Source of the DNA: an uncultured Clostridia bacterium
Lineage (GTDB): Bacteria; Bacillota; Clostridia; Christensenellales; CAG-138
DNA: 43,375 nt
Reading direction: 5' to 3'
NCBI GenBank assembly: GCA_944336625.1
Contig: CALVLF010000053.1
Location: 1 to 43,375 of the forward strand
Shown one piece after another: positions 7,813-43,375 of this stretch. Below the pieces are notes generated by a model. That model saw nothing but the letters and a program-made list of their open reading frames with translations, was not told the origin of the DNA and made no database searches. The position numbers and the translations under genes were made by a program. Numbering within the stretch: the stretch's first letter is position 1; the number at the start of each line of letters is the position of its first letter.

Positions 7813-9168
7813 ATGGCAAGGCTGTTTGGTACGGATGGCGTACGAGGCATTGCAAACCAAGACCTGAGCTGCGAACTGGCCATGAAAATCGGCATGGCTG
7901 GAGCCCAGGTTTTAACCAGCGAGGTGCATAACCCGCGGATATTAATCGGCAGGGATACGCGGCGCTCCGGCGATATGCTGGCAGCTGCCCTGATGGCAGG
8001 CATATGTTCCGTTGGCGGAGATGTGATCGACGTTGGGGTGATTCCGACCCCGGCAATGGCCTACCTCGTCCGGCTGTACGAGGCAGATGCAGCGGTAATG
8101 GTCAGCGCCAGCCATAATCCCATGGAATATAACGGGGTAAAATGGTTTAATGAGCAGGGATTTAAGCTTTCCGATGCATTGGAAGATCAGATCGAAGCGC
8201 TGGTCAAGGAGCCGGATTTTTTGCGCCCCATTGGCGAGGATGTGGGGCACGTCATCAATGCGAAGCGGGCCCGGAAGGAATATGAGGAGTTTCTTATTTC
8301 TACGGCCACCCAGCGCTTTGATGGGCTTACCGTGGTGCTGGATTGCGCCAACGGGGCGGCTTCCGGTATTGCGGCGGAGGTATTTACAGCCCTGGGCGCC
8401 CATGTGATTTCCCGGGCAGATGAGCCGGATGGGAGTAATATCAATGATGGCTGCGGCTCTACCCACCCGGAGCGGCTCCAGGAGCTGGTGACGGAAAGTG
8501 AGGCGGATGTAGGATTCGCTTTTGATGGGGATGCGGACAGGGTCATCGCTACCGATGAACGGGGCAATATCGTGGATGGAGACCGCATCCTGGGCATCTG
8601 CGGCAAGGTAATGCATGGGCAGGGCCGCCTCAGCGGAAATACCCTGGTGATTACGGTGATGAGCAATATTGGTCTGAAGCAGTATCTGCAGGAAACGGGA
8701 ATTTCCGTTGCAGAGACGGCTGTAGGCGATCGATATGTATTAGAGCGGATGCTGGAAGGCGGGTTCAGCCTGGGCGGAGAACAATCTGGCCATGTGATTT
8801 TCCTGGATCAGAATACGACAGGGGATGGGATCCTCACTGCCATCCAGGTTATGAACATTTTGAAGGCTTCCGGTAAGCGCATGTCCTCTCTGGCGGGGGA
8901 AGTGCCTATCTATCCTCAAATCCTGGTCAATGTCGTCCTGGAAAATGGGCTGAAGGCCCAGGCCATGGCGGATGAAGAAGTACAGGAAAAGACGGCGGAG
9001 ATCGCCGCCAAGCTAGAAGGCCGGGGCCGCATTCTGGTGCGGGCCAGCGGCACGGAACCCCTGATCCGCATCATGCTGGAAGGCCAGGATCCGGATGAGC
9101 TGGAGGAATTGGCGGCGCAGGTAGCCCGCATCCTTCGCAGGAAGTATAATGGCAAGGTAAAGATATAG
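7813..9168 (+). CDS. glmM: Phosphoglucosamine mutase
   Basis: 451 residues, the normal GlmM length. It converts glucosamine-6-phosphate to glucosamine-1-phosphate, the step before UDP-GlcNAc in peptidoglycan precursor synthesis. The N-terminus MARLFGTDGVRGIANQ is diagnostic. The active serine lies in VMVSASHNPMEYNGVKWF (near residue 101), the magnesium loop is FDGDADRV (near residue 240), the sugar loop is GGEQSGHVIF, and the C-terminal phosphate loop is RASGTEPLIRIM. All key residues are intact. It has a GGAGG ribosome binding site, its own promoter and a terminator at 9188-9223, so it is monocistronic. Confidence 0.97.
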   Translation: MARLFGTDGVRGIANQDLSCELAMKIGMAGAQVLTSEVHNPRILIGRDTRRSGDMLAAALMAGICSVGGDVIDVGVIPTPAMAYLVRLYEADAAVMVSASHNPMEYNGVKWFNEQGFKLSDALEDQIEALVKEPDFLRPIGEDVGHVINAKRARKEYEEFLISTATQRFDGLTVVLDCANGAASGIAAEVFTALGAHVISRADEPDGSNINDGCGSTHPERLQELVTESEADVGFAFDGDADRVIATDERGNIVDGDRILGICGKVMHGQGRLSGNTLVITVMSNIGLKQYLQETGISVAETAVGDRYVLERMLEGGFSLGGEQSGHVIFLDQNTTGDGILTAIQVMNILKASGKRMSSLAGEVPIYPQILVNVVLENGLKAQAMADEEVQEKTAEIAAKLEGRGRILVRASGTEPLIRIMLEGQDPDELEELAAQVARILRRKYNGKVKI

Positions 9169-9187
9169 TTTTATAGCAACATCAGCA

Positions 9188-9227
9188 AAAGCGCCCGGTA
9201 CTCCAAAAGCGGCCGGGTGCTTTCGTC
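9188..9227 (+). terminator. Intrinsic terminator of glmM
   Basis: AAAGCGCCCGG (9188-9198) pairs with CCGGGTGCTTT (9213-9223), with one G-T wobble, and a T-rich tail follows. Confidence 0.8.
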
Positions 9228-9519
9228 TATTTTTTGGGTTTGGAAGCCGGAGCCGCGTAGGCTTGTATTCCCATTCGGTGGCATATGCGGCGGAAAATCT
9301 ATCAGGTCCGGCGGAAAATGCGTAAAAGCGGTCTATAGGCAGCTTTTATAGCGCTGCTCTTTATCCTGGTTTAGCGCATTTCAATTCATTACCGATAAGC
9401 GTGATGTATAGCAGATGAATGAAGGGCTGCATAGAACGAAACAAGGCGGGCAGGCCTGATACGAGCCCTTACATTGGCGCCTGCAAGGCCGCTCTTATCC
9501 AGAGGATCTATGTTAGGCC
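9228..9519. other. Gene-free stretch between convergent glmM and glycyl-tRNA synthetase
   Basis: No convincing gene. The only open frame of note (62 codons, minus strand, 9389-9577) runs into the glycyl-tRNA synthetase terminator and has no recognisable protein. The stretch contains an 11-bp direct repeat CGGCGGAAAAT at 9288-9298 and 9309-9319, with a 21-bp period. Confidence 0.5.
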
Positions 9520-9555
9520 AAAAAAAGAAACGGCATGGCAATTCATTGCCATGCC
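9520..9555 (-). terminator. Intrinsic terminator of glycyl-tRNA synthetase
   Basis: GGCATGGCAAT (9532-9542) and ATTGCCATGCC (9545-9555) form a perfect stem. On the minus strand it is followed by TTTCTTTTTTT. Confidence 0.9.
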
Positions 9556-9592
9556 ATAAAACATAACTTGGCTCCAAAGCCGAATCAGTTGA

Positions 9593-10981
9593 TTAAAAAT
9601 CCGTCGCTGCCAGGATATAGCTTTCCAGCTCAGAAATGGGCAGGCGGATCTGGTTCATGGTATCCCGATCCCGAACGGTGACAGTATCATCCTCCAGGGT
9701 ATCGAAGTCAATGGTAATGCACAGCGGCGTGCCGATCTCATCCTCCCGGCGGTAGCGCTTGCCGATCTGCCCCGCGTCGTCGTAGTCCACCATGAAGTGC
9801 CGAGCCAGCATGGCGTGAACCTCCTTGGCCTTATCGCCCAGCTTATTCTTCTGCAGGGGCAGTACGGCAGCTTTATAGGGGGCCAGAGCCGGATGGAGAT
9901 GCAGTACGTTGCGGATATCGCCATTCTCCAGGGTTTCTTCATCGTAGGCATCGCAGAGGAATGCCAGGGCAACCCGGTCTGCGCCCAGGGAGGGCTCTAC
10001 GCAGTAAGGGATATAGCGCGTATTGGTAAAGGGATCCAGATAATCCATGGAAGCGCCGCTGTGATTGGCATGGGCCTTCAGGTCAAAATCCGTCCGGCTT
10101 GCAATGCCCCAAAGCTCACCCCAGCCAAAGGGGAAGAGGAATTCAATATCCGTGGTGCCATTGCTGTAATGGGAAAGCTCCGCCTTATCATGCTCCCGCA
10201 TGCGCATATGCTCCGGCGTCATGCCTAGGGAAAGGAGCCAGTTTTTGCAGAAATCCTTCCAATAAGTGTACCATTCCATTTCAGTGCCTGGGGCGCAGAA
10301 GAACTCCAATTCCATCTGCTCGAATTCCCGCGTGCGGAAGGTGAAATTGCCAGGCGTGATTTCATTGCGGAAGGATTTGCCGATCTGGGCAATGCCGAAG
10401 GGAATCTTCCTGCGGGTAGTCCGCTGCACATTGCGGAAGTTTACGAAAATGCCCTGGGCAGTTTCCGGCCGGAGGTAGATCTGGCTGGCCGTGTCCTCGT
10501 TGACACCCTGAAAAGTTTTAAACATCATGTTGAATTTACGGATGCCCGTAAAGTCACTTTTACCGCATTCCGGGCAGGTAATGCCCTGATCTTTGATATA
10601 TTCCGCCATCTGTTCATGGCTCCAGCCATCGGGATGGACATCCAGGCCATGTTCCTTTGCATAGTCTTCGATGAGCTTATCGGCCCGGAAACGGGCTTTG
10701 CAGCTCTTGCAGTCCATAAGCGGGTCGTTGAAGTTCACCACATGGCCAGAGGCGACCCAGGTTTCCGGATTCATGAGAATAGCGGCATCCATGCCTACGT
10801 TATAGGGGCTTTCCTGTACGAATTTCCGCCACCAAGCTTTTTTGACGTTGTTTTTGAATTCTACGCCAAGAGGGCCATAGTCCCAGGTGTTCGCAAGACC
10901 GCCGTAGATCTCAGAACCAGCAAAAATAAATCCACGGTTTTTGCAGAGTGCAACGATCTTATCCATGCTAAAATTTGCCAT
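9593..10981 (-). CDS. glyQS: Glycyl-tRNA synthetase, dimeric type
   Basis: 462 residues starting [18 protein letters not shown]. The start at 10981 is chosen for its AAGGAG ribosome binding site and because the promoter at 11030-11058 lies downstream of the longer in-frame extension. This is the single-chain alpha-2 class II enzyme (eukaryote-like), not the separate GlyQ/GlyS type. Class II motifs are visible: motif 1/2 region with [20 protein letters not shown], then [20 protein letters not shown] and [14 protein letters not shown]. Motif 3 is [18 protein letters not shown] zinc-type cysteine set (CKSC and CPECGKSD) lies in the insertion near residues 94-145. The C-terminal anticodon-binding domain follows ([10 protein letters not shown]). 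I saw no T-box leader; the 5' leader is only about 45 bases. Confidence 0.96.
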
Positions 10982-29158: not shown

Positions 29159-32100
29159 ATGCGCAGAATCTTTGCGCTAGCCTTAGCGCTGGTTATTATT
29201 TTTTCCCTCCTTCCCCAGAGTGGGGCCCTTGCAGCTACGAATAGCTATGACACCATCCGCGTCAAGCTTTCTACCAATAACGCAACGGCCCTTTCTCTTT
29301 ATGCCTCCGGCAGCTATTTCATCAGGGAAAACGGTGCCTCCTTTTCCGGCGGCACGATTTCCGTCCGTTCCAACTTCGATGGTAGTTTGACCCTGAGCCA
29401 TTCTTCCCTGGGAATCCTTTATACCGGCAAGACCATCAGCCTTATGCGGGAAAAGATGGACAGAACCGCTGGGCATATCCAGCTAGGCAGCTACCGGTAT
29501 TTGGGACACTTTTATTTTTCTGCCCTGAGCAGCGGATATATTCAGGTGGTAAATGAGGTTCCTTTGGCACACTATCTCTATGGTGTGGTGAGCTATGAGA
29601 TGAGCAATACCTTCCCCATAGAGGCCCTCAAGGCCCAGGCCATTGCCGCCAAGTGTTATGTGCTCAGTCTCCTTTCCAGCAATGGCTCCTATGATATTGG
29701 CGATACCTCTAGTGACCAGGTCTACCGGGGCTATAATGCCAGCTATACCAATGTAATCGCTGCCGTGGATGCTACCCTACAAGAGGTACTGACCGTAAAT
29801 GGGCGGCTGCTTTGCACCTATTATGCCGCCAGCAACGGCGGGGAGACCATCCTGCCTAGCCAGGCCTGGAGCGGCCGCAGCGATGCGGGCTATGCGGTAG
29901 CGCAAGATCCTTACGATCTGCGTAACGTTTACAGCAAGCGGGAAACGGTTACCATCCCCCTAAACCAGGGGGGATCCATTAACCAGGGCATCTGGAACCT
30001 GCTCCTCGCAAAGGCCAGCGCCGCCACAGGGCAGAGCTGTAATTCCCTTTATAACATCGCGTCCTTTTCCCTCCATAGCCCTCGCTATTCCTCCCATACC
30101 CGGAATATGACAGCAGGCAGCGCTGTGGTCTCCGTGGGTACTACCAGCGGGAGCCGTATTGATAACGTCAACGTATCCTTCAGCACCACGGAGCTTTTGG
30201 CTTACCAGGCGGTAACAGATAGTACGCTGCGGGCCTTCTGGGGAGAACTTTCCCAGGATGGCACCCAATATTATATCTACCACCTGCGCTATGGACATGG
30301 GGTTGGTATGAGCCAGCGGGGCGCCCAGCAGGCCGCCACTGAGGGCCTTTCTTATCGGGATATCCTTCGCTTCTATTATCCGGGGGCCAGCTTTGGTACC
30401 ATATCCGTCCAGATGCCGGCGGACCCGGTGAATTCCCTGGCTTCTAACGGGGAGCAAACGGACTATGTGCTGGCCTACACTACCACCGGCGTTAATTTGC
30501 GGGCCGGCGCGGGCAGGGATTATATGTCTATCCTCATTCTCCCCGGCGGCGCCGAGCTTCGAGTCTATTCCCGGAATAATGGCTGGGCTCAGGTTTCCTA
30601 TGGGACTTACCAGGGATACGTTTATGAACAGTATATCGACTATGTCAACGGCTATCCCGCGTCTACCCCTACGCCTTCTCTGGCGCCCACGCCCTCCGCT
30701 ACCCCCAGTTCCACAGCGGCGCCCGGCGTGATCGCATTTGGCAGGGTAACGGGCCAGGGAGTCAATATCCGGACGGGTCCCAGTACAAGCTACCCCAGCC
30801 TTGGAAAGTTGGACAAGAATACTGCTCTCAATATCTATGGCCAGCAAAATGGCTGGTACAGCGTTTCTACGGACATGGGCAGCGGTTATATCATCAGCAG
30901 TTATGTGGCCATTACAGGTTTCCCTGTCTATACGCCTGTGGACGACGGCCTGGAGCAGCCTGTACAGACCATTCAGCCCAGCGCCACGGCTACGCCCGCC
31001 CCCACTTACGCCATTCCCATCGTAACCAGCGACCCGTATACGACGGTGCAGACGGGCCTTTTATCCACCGGCGGCGTAAATTTCCGGGAAGGGCCGGATA
31101 CCAGCTACAGGAGCATGGGCAAACTGAGCAAGAACACTGGGGGGTATATATTAGGCCGGGATGGCGACTGGTATAAAGTCCTGATCGATGGGCAAACCGG
31201 CTATGTTTATGACAGTTACATTACGGTCACCGGCACCGCCCGCATCGACAGCGAGGGAAATGTGGAGGGTGCGCCGCCCAAGGGAAGCATCGGCCTGGGC
31301 AAAGCCACTGGCAATGTTTATCTGCGTAAGGGACCGGGCACCAGCAATACTGCCATCACCATTCTTCGCCCCGATACGGAAGTAGTCCTTTACGCACTAG
31401 AAGATGGCTGGTATAAGGTAGAGCTGGAGGATGGAACCGAAGGCTATGTCAGCTCCAAATATATCGCCGTGACCCAGAGCTACAATTCTTCCATTACCGG
31501 CGGCGGTTCTTCCGGCAGCGGCTCCGATGGTACATCTACGGAAGCCGAGGGGAGCCCTGGCGTTACTACGACGGATGTAAATTTCCGGCAAGGACCATCT
31601 ACCAGCACAAAAAAGCTGGGGCGCATCGAGGAAGGTGCCTCCATAACCATATTGGCTACGGAAGGCAGCTGGCGCAAGGTAATCTATAATGGAACTACTG
31701 GCTATATTTATGGAAAATATGTAAAGGAACTGGAAAGCAGCAGCCAGGAGACCATCGTTTCCCCAGAGGCCTCGCCAGCCCCCAGCCTGCCTGCAGGCGC
31801 CTCGGTAGAACTGGCTTCGGGCTCCGCCGGCGGCAAGGTCAATCTGCGAAAGGGGCCCAGCACGGAGGCGGAAAAAATCGAACTCCTGCCCAAGGGAACG
31901 TCCCTGCATATCTTAGGCCAATGCGGAGACTGGTATTATGTCCTTTATAATGGGCAAACGGGCTTTGCGTATAAGGCATATATCCGGGTGGAAAGTCAAG
32001 GAGCCGCAGGCATTCCTACGGTAAGCGCGGCTATTTCCCCCAGGCAATGTACCACCACTGCCGAGGTAAACATGCGCACCGGGGCCAGCACCTCCAGCTC

Positions 32101-32224
32101 TATCATCACTTTGATCGATCATCGGGAGACGGTAACGGTTTACTATGTCCTCAACGGTTGGTGCCTTGTGCGCTATGGAGGCGTATTCGGCTATGTCACC
32201 AGCCAGTATGTGGATCTGGGCTGA
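29159..32224 (+). CDS. Secreted SpoIID/LytB-domain protein with seven SH3b repeats
   Basis: 1021 residues. A signal peptide (residues 1-25, ending ALA-A) is followed by a SpoIID domain (about 90-410): VNEVPLAHYLYGVVSYEMSN, then FPIEALKAQAIAAKCYVL, CTYYAASNGGET and the C-terminal GHGVGMSQRGAQQAA. SpoIID is the lytic transglycosylase of spore engulfment; LytB-like proteins act on vegetative walls. After a Pro/Thr/Ser linker come seven SH3b modules of 55-62 residues, each with the VN(L/I/F)RxGPxT core and a GY(V/I)xxxYI end, starting roughly at nt 30468, 30735, 31050, 31290, 31560, 31800 and 32040. They would bind peptidoglycan. Linkers rich in Ser/Thr/Pro vary while cores stay alike. Bacillus SpoIID lacks this SH3 array and has a membrane anchor, so this is more likely a wall-remodelling relative than SpoIID itself. 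Confidence 0.9.
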   Translation: MRRIFALALALVIIFSLLPQSGALAATNSYDTIRVKLSTNNATALSLYASGSYFIRENGASFSGGTISVRSNFDGSLTLSHSSLGILYTGKTISLMREKMDRTAGHIQLGSYRYLGHFYFSALSSGYIQVVNEVPLAHYLYGVVSYEMSNTFPIEALKAQAIAAKCYVLSLLSSNGSYDIGDTSSDQVYRGYNASYTNVIAAVDATLQEVLTVNGRLLCTYYAASNGGETILPSQAWSGRSDAGYAVAQDPYDLRNVYSKRETVTIPLNQGGSINQGIWNLLLAKASAATGQSCNSLYNIASFSLHSPRYSSHTRNMTAGSAVVSVGTTSGSRIDNVNVSFSTTELLAYQAVTDSTLRAFWGELSQDGTQYYIYHLRYGHGVGMSQRGAQQAATEGLSYRDILRFYYPGASFGTISVQMPADPVNSLASNGEQTDYVLAYTTTGVNLRAGAGRDYMSILILPGGAELRVYSRNNGWAQVSYGTYQGYVYEQYIDYVNGYPASTPTPSLAPTPSATPSSTAAPGVIAFGRVTGQGVNIRTGPSTSYPSLGKLDKNTALNIYGQQNGWYSVSTDMGSGYIISSYVAITGFPVYTPVDDGLEQPVQTIQPSATATPAPTYAIPIVTSDPYTTVQTGLLSTGGVNFREGPDTSYRSMGKLSKNTGGYILGRDGDWYKVLIDGQTGYVYDSYITVTGTARIDSEGNVEGAPPKGSIGLGKATGNVYLRKGPGTSNTAITILRPDTEVVLYALEDGWYKVELEDGTEGYVSSKYIAVTQSYNSSITGGGSSGSGSDGTSTEAEGSPGVTTTDVNFRQGPSTSTKKLGRIEEGASITILATEGSWRKVIYNGTTGYIYGKYVKELESSSQETIVSPEASPAPSLPAGASVELASGSAGGKVNLRKGPSTEAEKIELLPKGTSLHILGQCGDWYYVLYNGQTGFAYKAYIRVESQGAAGIPTVSAAISPRQCTTTAEVNMRTGASTSSSIITLIDHRETVTVYYVLNGWCLVRYGGVFGYVTSQYVDLG

Positions 32225-34670: not shown

Positions 34671-34935
34671 GTGCGCCTTGGGCACAATCCTGAGAACATG
34701 GCAGCAAGCCGGAAAGGGAGGGAATCCAGCCCCGACCAAAGGAAAAATAACCAAAAGTGCAAATGGGGCGTTATTCGCGCATATTCGGCAAAACTAGTGG
34801 GAATACTTGGAAGGGAGCGAAATTTATGCGGTGAAAAGGATATATATGGCCGCCGCGGAGCCGGCGTCCTGTTTTCCGCCTGCCGGGAGAAGGAAGGTGC
34901 GCCGGCGTGGCATATTTCTTTGCGGAGGACAAGCT
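34671..34935. other. Leader/promoter region of the spoIIA operon
   Basis: No gene. TTCGGCAAA (34784-34792) is one base away from the Spo0A box read in reverse (TTCGACAAA). AAAGGAAAA (34738-34746) resembles a sigma-H -35 element, but a convincing sigma-H -10 (GAAT-type) at the right distance is not seen. Sigma-H and Spo0A control of spoIIA is known in Bacillus. Confidence 0.35.
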
Positions 34936-35277
34936 ATGCAGATAATGACAAAACGAAAAAACGGCCTGCTGATAGCCTCCTTATCCGGAGAGCTGGATCA
35001 TCACAGCGCTTCCCAGGTGCGGGAAGAGCTGGATGAAGAATTGACAATGGATATACAGGAACTAGAGCTGGATCTTAGCGGCGTTACCTTTATGGATAGC
35101 TCGGGTATCGGCGTGATCCTGGGTCGGTACCGGATCCTGCGGGAGCGGGGCGGAAGCCTGCGGATAACCGCTATGAGCGCCTATGTCGGACGGATTTTAA
35201 AAATGGCAGGGGTTTTACCGCTGGTAAGCCAGCAGGAAAGCCAAAGCAAGGGGAAAAGGGGGACAAAACATGCTTGA
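34936..35277 (+). CDS. spoIIAA: Anti-sigma-F factor antagonist SpoIIAA
   Basis: 113 residues from the ATG at 34936, with GGAGG 8 bp upstream. It is a single STAS domain with the phosphorylation loop in LDLSGVTFMDSSGIGVILGR, where SpoIIAB phosphorylates a serine of DSSG (residues 54-57). Unphosphorylated SpoIIAA frees sigma-F in the forespore. The C-terminal extension after MAGVLPLV (SQQESQSKGKRGTKHA) is polar and slightly longer than in Bacillus. The stop overlaps spoIIAB by 8 bases. Confidence 0.95.
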   Translation: MQIMTKRKNGLLIASLSGELDHHSASQVREELDEELTMDIQELELDLSGVTFMDSSGIGVILGRYRILRERGGSLRITAMSAYVGRILKMAGVLPLVSQQESQSKGKRGTKHA

Positions 35278-35710
35278 GAATCAAATGGAACTGCACTTTG
35301 CCAGCATCTCGCAAAACGAAGCCTTTGCGCGGACGGTAGCTGCGGCTTTTGCCACCCAGCTGAACCCCACCATCGAAGAGCTGACCGATATCCGTACGGC
35401 GGTGAGCGAAGCGGTGACCAATGCCATCATCCATGGCTATGAGAATGATCCGGGGCAGACTGTAATCCTAACTGGGGAAATCCAGGGGCGGAGCATTGTG
35501 CTCAGTATCCGGGATACGGGCAGAGGAATCGAGAATGTGGAACTGGCCCGGCAGCCTTTCTATACCAGCCAGCCGAATATGGAGCGAAGCGGCATGGGAT
35601 TTTCCGTTATGGAAGCTTTTATGGACAAGGTAGTCGTGGAATCTTCCCCGGGCCAGGGAACGGTCGTGACCCTATTTAAACAGCTGAGCCAGGAGGATGA
35701 CCATGCCTGA
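35270..35710 (+). CDS. spoIIAB: Anti-sigma-F factor / serine kinase SpoIIAB
   Basis: 146 residues, GHKL-type kinase. The N box is EAVTNAIIHGYEN, the G1 box DTGRGIENVELAR and the G2 box MERSGMGFSVMEAF. It binds sigma-F and inactivates it, and phosphorylates SpoIIAA. The gene overlaps spoIIAA by 8 bases at the front and sigF by 8 at the back, a translationally coupled operon that keeps the three proteins in proportion. The ribosome binding site GGGGGAC is inside spoIIAA. Confidence 0.96.
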   Translation: MLENQMELHFASISQNEAFARTVAAAFATQLNPTIEELTDIRTAVSEAVTNAIIHGYENDPGQTVILTGEIQGRSIVLSIRDTGRGIENVELARQPFYTSQPNMERSGMGFSVMEAFMDKVVVESSPGQGTVVTLFKQLSQEDDHA

Positions 35711-36440
35711 AAGCGGAGCCCTTCCGCATGAGGAAACCATGGATTTGATCATCCGGGCCCAGGCCGGCGATGCGGGAGCACAGGAGCGTTTGGTCGTATG
35801 TAATGCCCCACTGGTCCGCTCCATCGTACGAAAGTATATGGGCAGGGGAACAGAATACGAAGATCTTTATCAGATCGGCTGCCTGGGGCTTGTGAAGGCA
35901 ATCCGGAATTTCAGTACGAGTTATAATGTTCGTTTTTCCACTTATGCGGTGCCCATGATTGCTGGCGAGATCAAGCGCTTCCTTCGGGATGACGGAATGA
36001 TCAAGGTAAGCCGGTCTCTCAAAGAGCTGGCAGCCCGCATAGCCGCCGTGCAAACGGAACTGTCCAATAAATCAGGGCGGGAGCCCGGCGTTGTAGAAAT
36101 TGCCCAGACCTTGGGAGAATCCCCGGAAGATATTGCCATGGCGATGGAGGCCGTCCGTCCCCATGTTTCGCTATATGAACCGGCCTATGGGGAAGACTCG
36201 GAGCCCCGGGTAATCGAACGGATGGCAGGGGAAGAGGATGGGGAAGAAAAGGCGCTGAACCGCGTACTTTTAAAGGAACTGCTGAATACCCTGGATGCCC
36301 GTGAGCGGCAGATTATCCTCTTGCGCTATTTTTCGGATAAAACCCAGAGCGAAATCGCGGGTATGCTGGGCATATCTCAGGTGCAGGTATCCCGCCTGGA
36401 GAGCCGCATTCTACAGAAAATGCGGGAAAAAGCCAAATAA
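35703..36440 (+). CDS. sigF: RNA polymerase sigma-F factor
   Basis: 245 residues from the ATG at 35703 with AGGAGG 6 bp upstream; the in-frame ATG at 35697 touches that site. It is the first forespore-specific sigma factor. Region 2 contains the core-binding YEDLYQIGCLGLVKAIRNF and FSTYAVPMIAGEIKRFLRDDG. Region 3 follows (REPGVVEIAQTLGESPEDIAMAME), and region 4 has the helix-turn-helix KTQSEIAGMLGISQVQVSRLE. The genomic position after spoIIAA-spoIIAB separates it from the similar sigma-G. Confidence 0.96.
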   Translation: MPESGALPHEETMDLIIRAQAGDAGAQERLVVCNAPLVRSIVRKYMGRGTEYEDLYQIGCLGLVKAIRNFSTSYNVRFSTYAVPMIAGEIKRFLRDDGMIKVSRSLKELAARIAAVQTELSNKSGREPGVVEIAQTLGESPEDIAMAMEAVRPHVSLYEPAYGEDSEPRVIERMAGEEDGEEKALNRVLLKELLNTLDARERQIILLRYFSDKTQSEIAGMLGISQVQVSRLESRILQKMREKAK

Positions 36441-36518: not shown

Positions 36519-37376
36519 TTAGGCCCGCCCAGCAGCCGTGTAAACCAGCTCCATATGCTCTGCATCCGGAAGATCCCCTACATGGGAAAGGCTGCCATCA
36601 AAATAGAGGCAGGCATGCCCGTCCATATCGTTCCCTGAATAATGATCTTCCCCATGGGGCCAGCCGGAAAGGGAGGCGGCAATATCCCGGCCTTCAATGG
36701 TGACGACTACGGGACGCTTGGAGAAATTATATTCGCCACCGAAGGCGTTGCGGTAAGTTTCTGCATTATAGGCGTCCGTGCATTCCATTTCCGCGTGTTG
36801 CTCCCCGGATACAAAATACATGGAAAAGGTAACGCCGGTATTATAATCGAAGACTGAATAGGCGGTGCCTGGAACCAACAGTTCCTTCACCTCGCTCCAG
36901 CTCACAAGTTCCCCTACGCGCTCTGCTTCGCCCTGGAGGGATTCGCCGATTGGAATTGAAGCGGCGATATCCGCCCGGGATACGTTGTGGCGGAAGAGAA
37001 TATCCATGGATTGGGAACCGATTGTGCCGTCGGCAACCATGGGAGTTCCATCGTCCATGGTATGCTTTTGCTGGAATTCTTTCGCCGCGTCCGCCGTCAT
37101 GGATTGATAGATCCCCGTGGGCTTGAAATTGAAATAATCAAGATCCCGCAGACGGATCTGCACCCGAACCACGTCCTCGTTGGTGGCATTATCCAGGGCG
37201 CTGATGGCGATCAGACCAGTAAAGGGCGTGGTTTCCGGAATGGCAGGCGTCCAGGTAGGGGCAGGGGTAAGGCGGGGCGTGGGCTCCGGCGTTGGAGTTT
37301 CCTCCTCGTCAGCCATGGCGGTGGATACGGGAAACAGGCATAATATACATAGTAAAAATAATATCGCACGTTTCAT
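36519..37376 (-). CDS. Secreted peptidoglycan-binding protein with GHxC C-terminal domain
   Basis: 285 residues from the ATG at 37376, giving a clear signal peptide (MKRAILFLLCILCLFPVSTAMA). A Pro/Thr linker is followed by a PG_binding_1 repeat (VRVQIRLRDLDYFNF, TADAAKEFQQKH, GTIGSQSMDILF) and a C-terminal domain of about 125 residues. That domain is clearly homologous to the end of the 41272-42405 protein: TG(V/L)(T/S)F, RP(V/I)xV, (I/V)AAS, PH(G/M), DGH(A/F)C(L/I), GS and a final His. The HxC element after a PHG resembles the L,D-transpeptidase HG...SHGC site but with the Gly replaced. No ribosome binding site is visible, and the promoter would start the transcript at the ATG, so the message may be leaderless. 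Confidence 0.8.
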   Translation of the reverse strand: MKRAILFLLCILCLFPVSTAMADEEETPTPEPTPRLTPAPTWTPAIPETTPFTGLIAISALDNATNEDVVRVQIRLRDLDYFNFKPTGIYQSMTADAAKEFQQKHTMDDGTPMVADGTIGSQSMDILFRHNVSRADIAASIPIGESLQGEAERVGELVSWSEVKELLVPGTAYSVFDYNTGVTFSMYFVSGEQHAEMECTDAYNAETYRNAFGGEYNFSKRPVVVTIEGRDIAASLSGWPHGEDHYSGNDMDGHACLYFDGSLSHVGDLPDAEHMELVYTAAGRA

Positions 37377-37382
37377 ATACAC

Positions 37383-37412
37383 AGTATAACACAGGCCGGG
37401 GAAGCAGCGCAA
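37383..37412 (-). promoter_or_regulatory. Promoter of the peptidoglycan-binding gene, leaderless
   Basis: On the minus strand TTGCGC (37407-37412), 18 bp and TATACT (37383-37388). The ATG at 37376 lies seven bases after the -10 box, the normal start of transcription. Confidence 0.55.
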
Positions 37413-37464
37413 TGCATCCCATAAAACCCGGACCTGCTGCCTTTTTGCATAGCGGCGAAAAAAC

Positions 37465-38160
37465 TCAGGGCTTATCCGTGGGAATCAGGTTGAGCATGTC
37501 TTCTTCGCCGGCCACGTTGGTATATACCTCAGGTACATCCCCGACGATGATGCTCTCCGCAATAGCTGCCTCCGCAGAAACCTGGATCACCTCGCTGACG
37601 CCTGGCAGGATCAAACGGACGGAGGCTGTAAGCCTAAGGTTTACCCGATATAAGGATTGATTGATGCCGCTGGCCTGCAGATCGGAGGAAAACTCGCTTT
37701 GTACGCTGCCCACTGGCGTAAAGCTGACCCGAATCCCCGGCCCTTTCCCGGAAAGAAAGGAAATGCCTGTAACCGTGCCCAGGGGCACGGTTACGCCCTG
37801 CTCGCCGATCTGCGCAATCCGGTCTTGGGCCGCTTCAGCGCAATCCGCAGCCAGGATGTTCATATTGCGGGTATTGGCCTGGAGCATATAGACTTTTTCC
37901 CCGTTATCCTTTACGGAAAGGAGCTGGGCGTAGGTCGTCTCATCCCCCATGGATTCCAGGATGGCGTCATTCATGGCCCGGGCGGCGATGGAGCGGATAC
38001 GGGCTTCTGCCAGGGCTTGAAGCGCCGGACGCATATTCCTGCTCAAAAGCGCTGCCCCCAGGATGGATAAAATACACAGTGCTACCATAATCAGAGCAAG
38101 GCGCTTCTTGAATTTCCGGAATTTCCTCCGGGGAGAGGAATCGGTTGGCAAAGCGGACAT
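37465..38160 (-). CDS. yunB: Sporulation protein YunB
   Basis: 231 residues. One membrane helix near the N-terminus (LALIMVALCILSILGAALL, about residues 21-39) follows a basic stretch (RRKFRKFKKR), so most of the protein is outside. Family features are the RIRSIAARAMNDAILESM segment, NMNILAADC, VTVPLGTVTGISFLSGKGPGI and the C-terminal SAEAAIAESIIVGDVPEVYTN. YunB is a sigma-E-controlled protein in Bacillus of undefined role in sporulation. An AGGAGG ribosome binding site precedes the ATG. It is divergent from the class A PBP gene with a palindrome between. Confidence 0.93.
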   Translation of the reverse strand: MSALPTDSSPRRKFRKFKKRLALIMVALCILSILGAALLSRNMRPALQALAEARIRSIAARAMNDAILESMGDETTYAQLLSVKDNGEKVYMLQANTRNMNILAADCAEAAQDRIAQIGEQGVTVPLGTVTGISFLSGKGPGIRVSFTPVGSVQSEFSSDLQASGINQSLYRVNLRLTASVRLILPGVSEVIQVSAEAAIAESIIVGDVPEVYTNVAGEEDMLNLIPTDKP

Positions 38161-38210
38161 AGAGACCTCCTGTTCTAGGCAAATCGTAAGGGGTGGGCTG
38201 GCAAAAAATC

Positions 38211-38229
38211 AATAAGTTGTTAACTTATT
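38211..38229. promoter_or_regulatory. Palindrome between yunB and the PBP gene
   Basis: AATAAGTT (38211-38218), three bases and AACTTATT (38222-38229): a perfect 8-bp inverted repeat with a short centre, typical in size for a regulator site. Confidence 0.55.
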
Positions 38230-38238
38230 CTATGCGGC

Positions 38239-38269
38239 CCGGCAGATTATTGAGCTTGACCGGCAGATT
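38239..38269. repeat. CCGGCAGATT direct repeat around the PBP -35 box
   Basis: CCGGCAGATT occurs at 38239-38248 and 38260-38269, a 21-bp period or two helical turns. The copies flank the TTGAGC -35 hexamer. Confidence 0.65.
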
Positions 38270-38279
38270 GTGCTATAAT
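38250..38279 (+). promoter_or_regulatory. Promoter of the class A PBP gene
   Basis: TTGAGC (38250-38255), 18 bp and a perfect TATAAT (38274-38279), about 33 bp before the start codon. Confidence 0.7.
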
Positions 38280-38311
38280 GTAACGGGGAAATTTGCGAAA
38301 GGAACCCATGC

Positions 38312-41260
38312 ATGAAACGCTTTGATAAACACGATAACGATAAACAAAAGAACCTGCTTGCCCGGGGGAAGAGCTCTCCAGAAAATGATACTGCTTCTGA
38401 GGATGGGTGGACGGATATCCTTGAAAGGCTCAAGGCTTGGTGGGGCAGCCTGCGCAGCCGGTTCCAGCGCCGGGAGGCAAAGGGCGGCAAACCGCAGGAA
38501 ATTTTCGTAGAGCGCCGGGGCAATCGCCCCTTTTTATTAGCGCTCCTGTTTACGACCCTGAAAGTTATGGGCGTTATGGTCATTTTGCTCGGCTGTATCG
38601 GCATGGGCCTGGTGATGGGCATTGCCAAAGCCTATATCGATACCACGCCCGAACTGGATACGGCGCAGATCACTAGGAGCGATAGGACCTCGTATATTTA
38701 CGATAAGGACGGAAATCTAATCACTACCTTCGCGGGTATGGAATACCGGGATTGGGCGGATATTGATGAGATTCCGGATATGCTCAAGAATGCCCTGATC
38801 GCCATAGAGGATGTGCGCTTTTATAAGCACGATGGCGTGGATTACAAGCGCCTGTTTTCTGCTGTAATCAACACCCTGCGCAATACGTATACCCATGGCG
38901 GCAGCACCCTAACCCAGCAGCTTATTAAGAACAAGGTCCTTTCCAGCGAACAAAGCTATAAGCGCAAGATTAAAGAGGCGTATTTAGCCATAGAGCTGGA
39001 AAACGTATTTACCAAAGACCAGATCCTGGAAGCTTACATGAACGACGTGAGCCTGGGGGGCTCCAACTATGGCTTTAAAACTGCAGCCATGGACTATTTC
39101 GGCAAGGAAATGGGCGAGCTGACCATTCGGGAATGTGCCATGCTGGCTGGCCTTGTGCAGAAGCCCTATACCACCGATCCTCGCATCAATACCTACCAGC
39201 GTACCCTTACGGACAGCAAGCGGGAAGAGCTGGAGGAGCTGTATGCTTCCGGCGCCATTACGGAGGCGCAATACCGCTATTCTCTGGAAAACAACAACCA
39301 GATGTACGTTACGGACCGGCGTACCAACGTGGTTTTACTGGCCATGTACGAAGGCGGCTTCATAACCAAGGAGCAGTATGAATCCGCTCTGAACGATACG
39401 GTAACCATCATCGAAGAATCCTCCAATAATCAGCTCTATGATATGCCCTATTTTGTGGAGTACGCCATTCGGGACGTCATTACCCACCTGCTGGAGCAGC
39501 GGGGCATGCTGGATACGGTAGCAAACCGGGCCTCCATTGAAAATGAGCTGCGCACGGGCGGGTATCATATTTATCTTACCGTGGATACGGAAATGCAGCA
39601 CGCGGTTCAGGAGACCATAACCAATTGGGATGAATATCCGGAGCTTACGGATCCTTCCGCTGCCATTCGGGTAGAAACCCTGGATAATGGAACCACCATC
39701 GAAACCGTACAGCCGCAGGTTGCGGCTGTAGTGCTGGATTATCATACGGGAGAACTGCGGGCCATCATCGGCGGCCGGGAGGAGCCGGTTATCCAGAAAG
39801 GCCTGAACCGGGCCACCAGCCCCGTGCAGGTGGGGTCTTCCATTAAGCCTTTGGGCGTATATGGCCCCGCCTTGGATCTTGGCGCCTCCCCGGCTACTAT
39901 CCTGGCCAATTTTCCCTCTCCAATCGAGGGCTGGGATAGTGAAAGCGGCTATCCTGCCGTAGGCAGCGAGCGGTATATCGGCCCGCTGACGCTGCGCACT
40001 GGCGTGGTGCAGTCTTTGAACGTAGCGGCAGCCCGGACGCTTCTGGAGCATGTTGGGATCGAACAAGGGGCCGAGTATCTGGCCAATCTCGGGGTGGATC
40101 AAAGCCGGGTCAGCGCCACGGGCAGCGGCCTGGCCCTGGGGACGACGGATATTACCGCCGTGGAGATGGCGGTCGCCTATGGTGCCATTGGCAATGGCGG
40201 GGAATATATCGAGCCCCTTTCCTTTACCCGGGTGGTGGACGATAATGGCAAGATCATTCTCGATGCGGAAACCGTGCGCGACCGCCACCAGGTATTTAAA
40301 ACCTCTACGGCTTATATGCTGGTGGATATATTGACAGAGGCTGTTGAAAGCGGTACGGGCACGAACGCACGGATCGACGGAATTACCGTGGCAGGCAAGA
40401 CGGGCACCAACTCCGACTATTCCAGCGTATGCTTTACCGGTATTACGCCCTATTACAGCAGCTTCGTTTGGATCGGGCACGATTATTATACCCAGTATAA
40501 GCTCAAGGGCAGGGCTACTGGCGGTTCTTATGCAGCGCCGCTTTGGCAGGAATATATGTCCGCCATCCACGAGGGGCTTACAGACCGGCCTATCATCGAT
40601 GAATCCCCCTCGGAGCTGGGCCTGGAAAAATGCACGGTCTGCTCCGTCAGCGGGCTCCTTGCTACGGATGCCTGCTATGCAGACAGCGCTGGCCATACGC
40701 CCGTAACGGATTGGTTCGCCGAGGGAACGGCGCCAACGGAATTCTGCAATATGCATCTTATGACCCGCATCTGCCTGGATTCCGGCCAGCCTGCGTCGGC
40801 CTACTGTACCAATGTTTCCACCTCTTCCAGCGCCGTGCTGATCTTTACGGATTCCATGTATGCGGGCATCGATCAGCTTCTGGTGCTGGAACATATCCCC
40901 AATGCGGTTTGGATCAATATGACTTCCGCTGAGTATGATGCCCTTTCCGCCTCCGGAAGCACTGGTATCAGCGGCACCTGTGCCCTGCACACCCCCTCCT
41001 GGCTGCAGCAGAACAGCTGGGATGCGGACTTGACCTCTGCGCGGCAAACGGCCCAGAGCCTCATCAATCAGGTCAACCAGTACCTGAGCCAGACCCAGAC
41101 TCTGCCGGATTCGGACCGGAATAACCTCGTGCAGAATGTCTACACTCTGCAGAACTATGTAGCCTACGGTACCGCTTCGAACATTCTACGTGCCGTGGAA
41201 GAATTGCAATATACTTACACTGTCCTCAGGGAGGCGTACCCGCCCGTGGGCGCATATTAA
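38312..41260 (+). CDS. Class A penicillin-binding protein (PBP1A type)
   Basis: 982 residues, bifunctional. A basic cytoplasmic segment of about 70 residues precedes a membrane anchor (about 73-105). The GT51 transglycosylase domain has EDVRFYKHDGVD (166-177) and GGSTLTQQLIKN (196-207). The transpeptidase domain has SxxK at Ser509-Lys512 (SSIK), SxN at 568-570 (SLN) and KTG at 696-698. After the transpeptidase come two cysteine-containing stretches (CTVCSVSGLLATDAC; MTRICLDSGQPASAYC), as in other clostridial PBPs, and a Ser/Gln-rich tail. It polymerises and cross-links peptidoglycan at the outer membrane face. It lies upstream of an SH3/peptidoglycan-binding protein (11 bp gap) and opposite yunB, which suggests an envelope or sporulation role. 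Confidence 0.95.
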   Translation: MKRFDKHDNDKQKNLLARGKSSPENDTASEDGWTDILERLKAWWGSLRSRFQRREAKGGKPQEIFVERRGNRPFLLALLFTTLKVMGVMVILLGCIGMGLVMGIAKAYIDTTPELDTAQITRSDRTSYIYDKDGNLITTFAGMEYRDWADIDEIPDMLKNALIAIEDVRFYKHDGVDYKRLFSAVINTLRNTYTHGGSTLTQQLIKNKVLSSEQSYKRKIKEAYLAIELENVFTKDQILEAYMNDVSLGGSNYGFKTAAMDYFGKEMGELTIRECAMLAGLVQKPYTTDPRINTYQRTLTDSKREELEELYASGAITEAQYRYSLENNNQMYVTDRRTNVVLLAMYEGGFITKEQYESALNDTVTIIEESSNNQLYDMPYFVEYAIRDVITHLLEQRGMLDTVANRASIENELRTGGYHIYLTVDTEMQHAVQETITNWDEYPELTDPSAAIRVETLDNGTTIETVQPQVAAVVLDYHTGELRAIIGGREEPVIQKGLNRATSPVQVGSSIKPLGVYGPALDLGASPATILANFPSPIEGWDSESGYPAVGSERYIGPLTLRTGVVQSLNVAAARTLLEHVGIEQGAEYLANLGVDQSRVSATGSGLALGTTDITAVEMAVAYGAIGNGGEYIEPLSFTRVVDDNGKIILDAETVRDRHQVFKTSTAYMLVDILTEAVESGTGTNARIDGITVAGKTGTNSDYSSVCFTGITPYYSSFVWIGHDYYTQYKLKGRATGGSYAAPLWQEYMSAIHEGLTDRPIIDESPSELGLEKCTVCSVSGLLATDACYADSAGHTPVTDWFAEGTAPTEFCNMHLMTRICLDSGQPASAYCTNVSTSSSAVLIFTDSMYAGIDQLLVLEHIPNAVWINMTSAEYDALSASGSTGISGTCALHTPSWLQQNSWDADLTSARQTAQSLINQVNQYLSQTQTLPDSDRNNLVQNVYTLQNYVAYGTASNILRAVEELQYTYTVLREAYPPVGAY

Positions 41261-41271
41261 AGGAGGCAAAA

Positions 41272-42405
41272 ATGAACCGCAAACGGCTGGCTGCTGGAAT
41301 GCTTACCCTGCTGGCCCTTTTGCCAGGCAGGCTGATTTGTGCGGAAACCGGCACGATTACGGCCGAAGGGGTCAACCTTCGGGAGCAGGCAAACACGGAA
41401 TCCAATGCGTTGCGGGTGCTGAGCCTTGGGAGCGAAGCGGAAGTATTGGCCCAGGAGGGAAGCTGGTACCGGGTTATGCTTCCAGATGAAACCGTGGGCT
41501 ATATCCGGCAGGATTATATTTTTGTTCAAAGCGGCGGAAGCCGGGGTGCTTATGTCCTCGATGATAATACAGCCTTGCGGGGCGGCCCGGATGCCCATAC
41601 CTATGTGGTTGCCCAGCTTTCGGCGGGCCAGGGTGTTCGCGTAAAGCGGGTTGTGGGGGAATGGTATTTTGTAAATGCAAATGAGCAGGCCGGGTATGTG
41701 CACCGCCAGCATTTGAGCATGACTACCTCCGCCATGGCTTCCGCCAGCATGCTGAAGCAGGGTATGGAAGGGGCAGAGGTGGAACGGCTGCAGCAGGAGC
41801 TATACCGGCGGGGCTTTTTAGGAAAGGATGGCCTTACCGGCAGCTATTCCAGCGCTACCCGCAAGGCGGTCCTGGAATATCAGCAGGCTGCCGGCCTTAG
41901 CAGCGCAGATGGGGTAGCGGGAGCGGAGACCCTTTCTTCCATCTATGACAGTGGCAACGACCTGCGGAAAGAAACGGCAACCTTTACCCAGCTCAAGGGC
42001 AGCGTAATTCTGCTGGACTGGTTCGAAGGCGGGGAGGAATGGCTCCATAAGGGGGCGAAATTCACCGTAACGGATGTACGTACGGGGCTCAGTTTCCGGG
42101 CGCGCCGTTTCGGCGGCTGGTATCACGCGGATGTGGAACCCATTACTGCGGAGGATACGGCTATCATGAAGCGGATTGCCGGCGGCACCTGGAGCTGGAA
42201 CCGGCGGCCGATCTGGGTCACCTATGATGGAAAGACTGTAGCAGCCAGCATGCATTGTATGCCCCACATGGCCAATCCAACACGAAGCAACAATTTTGAT
42301 GGGCATTTCTGTATCCATCTGAAGGGCTCCAAGGTCCATGAAAACAGCAAGGAATGTCCCCGGCATCAGGCTTGCGTTACGGAGGCCTATCGGGCGGGCC
42401 GCTGA
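41272..42405 (+). CDS. Secreted SH3b/peptidoglycan-binding protein with GHxC C-terminal domain
   Basis: 377 residues. A signal peptide (about 1-24, ending RLICA-E) is followed by two SH3b modules (about 25-86 and 92-147), a PG_binding_1 repeat (MLKQGMEGAEVERLQQELYR, ATRKAVLEYQQAAGL) and a C-terminal domain of about 130 residues (VILLDWFEGGEEW to the end). The C-terminal domain is the same as in the minus-strand gene at 36519-37376 and contains GHFCIHLKGS near the end. Its PHM...GHFC arrangement recalls a degenerate L,D-transpeptidase active site; the cysteine is present in both paralogues. The gene follows the PBP by 11 bp with AAAGGAGG, so the two are probably co-transcribed, and the terminator at 42436 ends both. 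Confidence 0.82.
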   Translation: MNRKRLAAGMLTLLALLPGRLICAETGTITAEGVNLREQANTESNALRVLSLGSEAEVLAQEGSWYRVMLPDETVGYIRQDYIFVQSGGSRGAYVLDDNTALRGGPDAHTYVVAQLSAGQGVRVKRVVGEWYFVNANEQAGYVHRQHLSMTTSAMASASMLKQGMEGAEVERLQQELYRRGFLGKDGLTGSYSSATRKAVLEYQQAAGLSSADGVAGAETLSSIYDSGNDLRKETATFTQLKGSVILLDWFEGGEEWLHKGAKFTVTDVRTGLSFRARRFGGWYHADVEPITAEDTAIMKRIAGGTWSWNRRPIWVTYDGKTVAASMHCMPHMANPTRSNNFDGHFCIHLKGSKVHENSKECPRHQACVTEAYRAGR

Positions 42406-42435
42406 TTTTCCCCAAGGGGATCTGTATTTCATCGA

Positions 42436-42466
42436 AAAAAAGAGCAGTGCGCACTGCTCTTTTTTA
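42436..42466. terminator. Perfect bidirectional terminator
   Basis: AAAAAGAGCAGTGC (42437-42450) is mirrored by GCACTGCTCTTTTT (42451-42464), with the symmetry extending over 42436-42465. A-tracts and T-tracts on either side make it work on both strands. It separates the PBP operon from the gerA promoter. Confidence 0.92.
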
Positions 42467-42537: not shown

Positions 42538-43375
42538 ATGTCTCCATGGGAAAAGCTGGCACGAAGGCTGGGATTTACCCAGGAAGAAAGCGAATTTGAG
42601 CTTCTGGAAAGCGAATATGGCAACCCTGATGATTCGGGGAGGAAAGCGAACGCTTGCGGCGGGGAGGCGGATCCACAGCCGGGATGGCCTGGCAAGCATC
42701 CAGACCCTACTGCATTTCAGCCTGGTCCTCGGGGAAAGGTGTACCGGCGGATTCCGGCGCAATATGAAAAAGAAGAGCTGCCAACTTCCCTCGGGGAAGC
42801 TCTGGCAAGGTTGCGGCAAGATTTTCGTTCTGATATCAATACAGACTTGATCGTCCGCAGGTTCAGCCTGGGTGGCCAAGTGGATGCCGCTGCCGTTTTC
42901 CTGAACGGAATGGCAAATGGGAATGCCGTCAATGATTTTATCCTGCGGGAAGGCATGCGGCCGGATTGCCTGGTAGGGGCGAAGGCGCCTTATGGAAAAT
43001 TTTTGATAGAACGGATTTTTACGTTCAACGAAATGGATCTGGAAGAGGATTATACGAAGGTAAAGCAGGCCATTTTAGATGGGAAAACCGCCGTATTAAT
43101 CCAGGGAGAGCGGCAGGCCCTCATAGCAGATACCCGGGGCTATGCACATAGAGGGGTAGGCAAGGCAGAGAATGAAAAAACGGTGCGGGGGCCCCAGGAA
43201 AGCTTTACAGAAAATATGCGGACAAACATAACCCTTTTGCGGCGCATTATCCGCCGGGAGGACTTTGTCTGCGAAATCCGGCCCTCTGGCAGCGGAAACC
43301 GGCTGCAGGTTTCTATTGTATATCTGGAAGGGACAGCGAATACGGCGCTGGTGGAAGAAGTAAAAAGCCGCCTTG
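42538..43375 (+). CDS. Spore germination protein, GerA family (GerAA/GerKA type), partial
   Basis: The frame is open from the ATG at 42538 to the window edge, 279 codons, ribosome binding site GAGGAGGAAGGGG. The first 80 residues are variable and Gly/Pro/Asp-rich. The conserved N-terminal domain follows: SLGEALARLRQDFRSDINTD, VDAAAVFLNGMANGNAVNDF and, near residue 220, VRGPQESFTENMRTNITLLR, then SIVYLEGTANTALVEEVKSRL. That is the GerA signature. The transmembrane half lies beyond the window. GerA proteins form the A subunit of nutrient germinant receptors (or the SpoVAF relative) in the spore inner membrane. The sigma-G promoter fits forespore expression. Which receptor it is cannot be told without the downstream gerB and gerC genes. 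Confidence 0.92.
   Translation, partial: MSPWEKLARRLGFTQEESEFELLESEYGNPDDSGRKANACGGEADPQPGWPGKHPDPTAFQPGPRGKVYRRIPAQYEKEELPTSLGEALARLRQDFRSDINTDLIVRRFSLGGQVDAAAVFLNGMANGNAVNDFILREGMRPDCLVGAKAPYGKFLIERIFTFNEMDLEEDYTKVKQAILDGKTAVLIQGERQALIADTRGYAHRGVGKAENEKTVRGPQESFTENMRTNITLLRRIIRREDFVCEIRPSGSGNRLQVSIVYLEGTANTALVEEVKSRL

Follow-up and report, generated by a model that had tools for sequence, protein, structure and literature searches.

Two genes in the window, by which is meant the whole stretch of DNA analysed (43,375 nucleotides from an uncultured Clostridia bacterium), end in the same small domain, called GHxC here. The question raised by the locus is what this domain does in proteins that otherwise consist of wall-binding modules, and whether its place beside sporulation genes and a class A penicillin-binding protein (PBP) gene reveals its function.

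The two proteins and their neighbours

The products of ghxC1 (P0001) and ghxC2 (P0002) share their C-terminal 125-130 residues, a peptidoglycan-binding repeat and the order of motifs, and their genes flank yunB and the class A PBP gene (Table 1); in all of this, coordinates included, the first-pass annotation was right. In BLASTP, 201 residues align with 29% identity (E 3e-21), far beyond chance, so that the paralogy is real. Each frame opens with ATG (at 37376 on the minus strand and 41272 on the plus strand) and begins with a signal-peptide-like stretch, as judged from the sequence. The genome, which is 97.6% complete, has only these two copies.

Overlooked at first were spoIIAA-spoIIAB-sigF at 34807-36440, at lower coordinates than ghxC1, and the gerA-type gene after ghxC2. 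The gene set of the window thus comprises a SpoIID-SH3 gene, spoIIAA-spoIIAB-sigF, ghxC1, yunB, the class A PBP gene, ghxC2 and gerA. In the SpoIID-SH3 product (29159-32224), of 1021 residues, a SpoIID domain is combined with seven or more bacterial SH3 repeats. The arrangement ghxC1-yunB / PBP-ghxC2 is seen again in related genomes, where neighbours of the domain include PBP genes in 22 further loci, gerA-type genes in 14 and yunB in nine; beyond close relatives, gene order around the domain is mostly not conserved.

Divergent promoter-like sites between yunB and the PBP gene recur in orthologues, and are best assigned, provisionally, to sigma-E on the yunB side and sigma-A on the PBP side. 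The sigma-E-like site is exact and is the sole one of its kind in the window, the chance expectation being 0.27 when up to 2 mismatches are allowed. The two promoters overlap (38227-38279), their -35-like parts having bases in common. Transcription of ghxC2 probably proceeds together with the PBP gene from the sigma-A-like promoter, and a palindrome beyond ghxC2 is read as an intrinsic terminator separating it from gerA. Ahead of ghxC1, a TATA(A/C)T-like box lies a few bases before the ATG in all readable orthologues (L004, L006, L008, L009, L012, L013, L015 and L019), and there is no obvious ribosome-binding site either in the window (37376-37390) or in those orthologues. A conserved -10-like box in this position makes an own promoter and a leaderless mRNA possible for ghxC1, and suggests that the leaderless state may be conserved among the orthologues.

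Table 1. Features of the ghxC1-ghxC2 locus (window coordinates)
Feature	Position	Strand	Evidence or remarks
ghxC1 (P0001, 285 aa)	36519..37376	-	signal-peptide-like N-terminus, PG_binding_1, C-terminal GHxC domain
Modelled GHxC region of ghxC1	36522..36965	-	pLDDT 91.2, pTM 0.86
GHAC motif of ghxC1	36609..36620	-	sequence
PG_binding_1 repeat of ghxC1	37059..37181	-	Pfam E 2.6e-7
-10-like box (TATACT) a few bases ahead of the ghxC1 ATG	37383..37388	-	similar box in orthologues
yunB	37465..38160	-	TIGR02832 E 2.5e-45; PF09560
Possible sigma-E-type promoter of yunB	38227..38253	-	TCAATA-N13-CATAGAAT; orthologous gap alignment
Sigma-A-type promoter ahead of PBP-ghxC2	38250..38279	+	TTGAGC-N18-TATAAT with TG extension; orthologous gap alignment
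Class A penicillin-binding protein (PBP1A family)	38312..41260	+	Transgly E 5.6e-57, Transpeptidase E 6.3e-23
ghxC2 (P0002, 377 aa)	41272..42405	+	signal-peptide-like N-terminus, two SH3, PG_binding_1, C-terminal GHxC domain
Two bacterial SH3 domains of ghxC2	41368..41718	+	SH3_3 E 3.4e-17
PG_binding_1 repeat of ghxC2	41770..41937	+	Pfam E 1.9e-13
Modelled GHxC region of ghxC2	41953..42402	+	pLDDT 90.7, pTM 0.83
GHFC motif of ghxC2	42301..42312	+	P0002 residues 344-347
Palindrome with A and T tracts between ghxC2 and gerA	42435..42465	+	read from sequence
gerA-type germinant receptor gene, cut by window end	42538..43374	+	PF03323 E 2.1e-41

A widespread domain without a name

The shared C-terminal region matches no Pfam or NCBIfam model in either protein, PHROGs likewise holds no model of it, and no description of the domain was found in open-licence papers. 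The original view of the domain as unrecognised was therefore borne out, and the domain proved to be strongly conserved and to reside in exported wall-binding proteins. A scan of 84,980 species genomes with narrow patterns yielded 85 relatives, and a profile search of 398 genomes from the phylum detected the domain in 139; its partner modules are PG_binding_1, SH3 or LysM. Thermosyntropha lipolytica is one carrier that can be cultured. Among 137 distinct sequences collected for a residue tally (P0002 numbering), the spacing between the PH and GH motifs is 13 in 125.

The domain also occurs in Bacilli, where a megaplasmid of Cytobacillus spongiae (L160) encodes a GHxC protein, annotated as hypothetical, next to a VanW-family gene. 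Genomes of one family in the order sample (f144, e.g. G438, G487, G498 and G521), mostly without SpoIVA, have up to five copies, some of them within open frames 700 to 1100 residues long.

Comparison with known enzymes and folds

The first proposal for the domain was a divergent L,D-transpeptidase of the YkuD superfamily (PF03734). Members of that superfamily are likewise exported, often together with PG_binding_1 or LysM, and resemble GHxC in being beta-rich and in having a His-x-Cys motif with an upstream His, here a PH about 13 residues before it. The [ST]HGC signature is found in none of the 137 GHxC sequences, in every one of which Gly stands before the His and in none after it; no YkuD match at E<=1 was obtained with Pfam among 58 members, and hhalign of the GHxC profile with 20 YkuD domains from the same order gave a probability of 0.3%. 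The predicted fold finds other matches, and no YkuD chain was listed among the structure matches of two models, an absence that by itself is no proof. The Cys, moreover, is exchangeable for Asp in 8 of 136 sequences, and the genome of the window already has two ordinary YkuD proteins elsewhere. Kinship with YkuD was accordingly rejected, and a transpeptidase of this kind is the least probable of all the readings considered, with next to no weight left to it.

AlphaFold2 models of both GHxC domains are confident (Table 1), and for either model no PDB match reaches E<=0.001. PDB sequence searches gave chance matches only, and BFVD gave nothing below E 0.001. The top ranks in structural comparison are held, for both models, by PilZ-like and other small barrels with Z up to 7.0, a range (below 8) in which, as the tool warns, similarity may reflect merely a common arrangement. 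The PilZ and YcgR-N barrels, although the best structural neighbours (Z 6 to 7), are cytoplasmic c-di-GMP receptors with about 10% identity to GHxC, so that the resemblance is likely one of barrel shape only. It nevertheless lends some colour to the idea that GHxC is non-catalytic and binds the wall or a ligand, for example in muropeptide sensing or in positioning the PBP: YcgR-N and PilZ are ligand-binding domains, and GHxC is mostly paired with other binding modules. Such a role appears unlikely: invariant His, Ser and Trp residues together with a near-invariant GH[CD] are found more typically in active sites, every part of the phage proteins described below other than GHxC has been assigned to binding, and a weak likeness of this order may be no more than the common arrangement.

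Known wall hydrolases were no closer. Lysozyme, NlpC/P60 and LytM folds are absent from the structure lists of both models (which is not proof), and profiles for NlpC/P60 or CHAP, and for Amidase_2/3, M23 and M15, match none of 58 members at E<=1. The NlpC/P60 and CHAP cysteine hydrolases are, like GHxC, small domains that contain Cys and His and occur in proteins of similar modular build, and they cut the wall; unlike theirs, the Cys of GHxC is not invariant. With the zinc amidases and peptidases of the wall (Amidase_2/3, M23, M15) GHxC shares its modular partners and its proposed His-rich site with a Cys/Asp ligand, but the metal of GHxC is putative. As neither solved structures nor known hydrolase folds match, the case for catalysis rests on conservation and context.

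Conserved residues: nucleophile or metal ligand?

Five residues, W250, H285, S326, H332 and G344, are invariant in all 137 sequences, and two more, H356 and H365, in each of the 136 that extend far enough; the invariant His thus number four (H285, H332, H356 and H365). H345 is His in 133 of 137, four members lacking it. Residue 347 is Cys in 128 of the 136 and Asp in the rest, which comprise one LysM-bearing group and a single Tepidibacter plasmid protein.

If GHxC were a wall enzyme that depends on cysteine, be it a hydrolase or a transpeptidase, with a fold other than that of YkuD, Cys347 would be the nucleophile and a conserved His the base, and the variants with Asp would be inactive or changed. 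The prevalence of the Cys and, in most members, an invariant His 15 residues upstream agree with this, and the phage and PBP settings would suit any wall enzyme. The Asp members, however, keep every invariant His and, in all but one, the GH; they are spread over several families and look like working proteins rather than products of decay. A swap of Cys for Asp with the invariant His retained is more readily understood for a metal ligand than for a nucleophile, and a nucleophilic Cys347 therefore seems decidedly unlikely, somewhat more so than a mere binding role. The first-pass annotation had offered, besides the transpeptidase, some other cysteine cell-wall enzyme: the cell-wall enzyme probably stands, whereas the Cys nucleophile is weakened. 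The conserved set, four invariant His, one near-invariant His and a Cys/Asp exchange, is of the metal-ligand type, and residue 347 would accordingly be one of the ligands.

Relation to sporulation

The setting of the window copies among spoIIA, yunB and gerA, and the earlier suggestion of a function in the cortex or germ cell wall, raise the possibility of a spore-specific wall protein. At the level of the phylum the association is strong: 135 of the 139 carriers have SpoIVA (Fisher p 3e-8), and the four that lack it are 61, 72, 75 and 90% complete, three of them keeping Spo0A. Within the window's order, sampled as 121 genomes all at least 90% complete, the direction is opposite, the domain being carried by 17 of 20 SpoIVA-negative and 33 of 101 SpoIVA-positive genomes (p 2e-5). 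Sixteen of the 17 SpoIVA-negative carriers also lack SpoIIGA, and nine lack Spo0A. This reversal implies that the link to SpoIVA across the phylum reflects mostly ancestry.

Presence in non-sporulating lineages, which the first-pass annotation had itself held to speak against its proposal, is therefore observed at the level of genomes, and the data do not support a general role of the domain in cortex or germ wall. With the PBP-ghxC2 promoter being sigma-A-like as well, a spore-specific role for the family is very improbable, only slightly less so than a YkuD enzyme. Given the spore genes around them, ghxC1 or ghxC2 may have a spore role in the window's own genome. Spo0A_C-type matches in that genome (G000; C101, C91, C132, C113, C22) number five, and three of these lie in short open frames.

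GHxC proteins of phages

The strongest pointer to wall cutting comes from phages. Seven viral contigs encode GHxC, and their proteins form one group in the tree (support 98); those scanned consist of PG_binding_1 and GHxC, apparently, by eye, without a signal peptide. The gene order in one phage contig (L165) is tail genes, a lysin-like gene with Pfam ELLD (endolysin-like domain) and SH3 (8643-9479), the PG_binding_1-GHxC gene (9476-10429), a small membrane-protein-like ORF and a holin (PF09682, E 3.8e-11). This lysis-cassette setting, seen in one phage, argues for a lysin rather than for a sporulation gene carried by a phage, of which examples are known (PMC10294663). Since the ELLD-SH3 gene adjoins the GHxC gene, the cassette may hold two different lysins; a second contig (L162) has an NlpC/P60 gene as another wall-enzyme candidate, so that GHxC need not be the main lysin in either. 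Elsewhere (L167 and L168) the GHxC gene adjoins terminase and portal genes.

The phage proteins resemble modular endolysins with PG_binding_1 (PHROGs 1493, 2649 and 1224) in having the same module, in their apparent lack of a signal peptide and, for one copy, in lying by a holin. PHROGs labels the N-terminal part endolysin, but the match lies mainly within the binding module, and the GHxC part is left uncovered. Against named phage records the P0002 domain found nothing; a phage protein found 838, of which two cover 80%, and the places listed favour the N-terminal, binding-module side. The architecture is of the endolysin type, a wall-binding module (PG_binding_1, SH3 or LysM) being joined to a separate GHxC domain.

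One viral contig of 168960 bases (L155 and L166 being the same contig) has a GHxC gene (L155:2701-3500) with several in-frame stops, one read as TAG, at positions that hold ordinary residues in its relatives. This suggests that the phage may read TAG as an amino acid, perhaps Gln.

A model for GHxC function

Taken at large, the chances are about even that GHxC is a peptidoglycan-cleaving domain with a probable metal site, used for wall remodelling in bacteria and as a lysin in phages; catalysis, the cutting of a bond and metal binding are what we infer. The PG_binding_1, SH3 or LysM modules, or a membrane anchor, would place the domain on the wall, where H285, H332, H356 and H365, with the near-invariant H345 and Cys/Asp347, would probably form the metal site, likely for zinc. 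The metal would activate water, and a bond in peptidoglycan would be cut. Phages would use this activity as a lysin, and bacteria for wall remodelling beside the class A PBP: ghxC2, probably co-transcribed with it, would open or trim the wall during growth and may help PBP1 to insert new wall, while ghxC1, beside yunB, could act in sporulation, in growth or in both. The more specific reading, that of a new family of metal-dependent peptidoglycan hydrolases of Clostridia and their phages, with Cys or Asp as ligand and a fold unseen in wall enzymes, is put forward tentatively, as a possibility that falls short of an even chance.

Implications

GHxC is a real, widespread and unnamed domain family, and, to judge from its sequences and their settings, likely a peptidoglycan hydrolase. 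If the domain does cut peptidoglycan, a large group of gut and anaerobic bacteria would gain a further family of wall enzymes, and the domain would be a source of phage lysins against Clostridia. It would also aid the annotation of many proteins that are now only "peptidoglycan-binding" or hypothetical.
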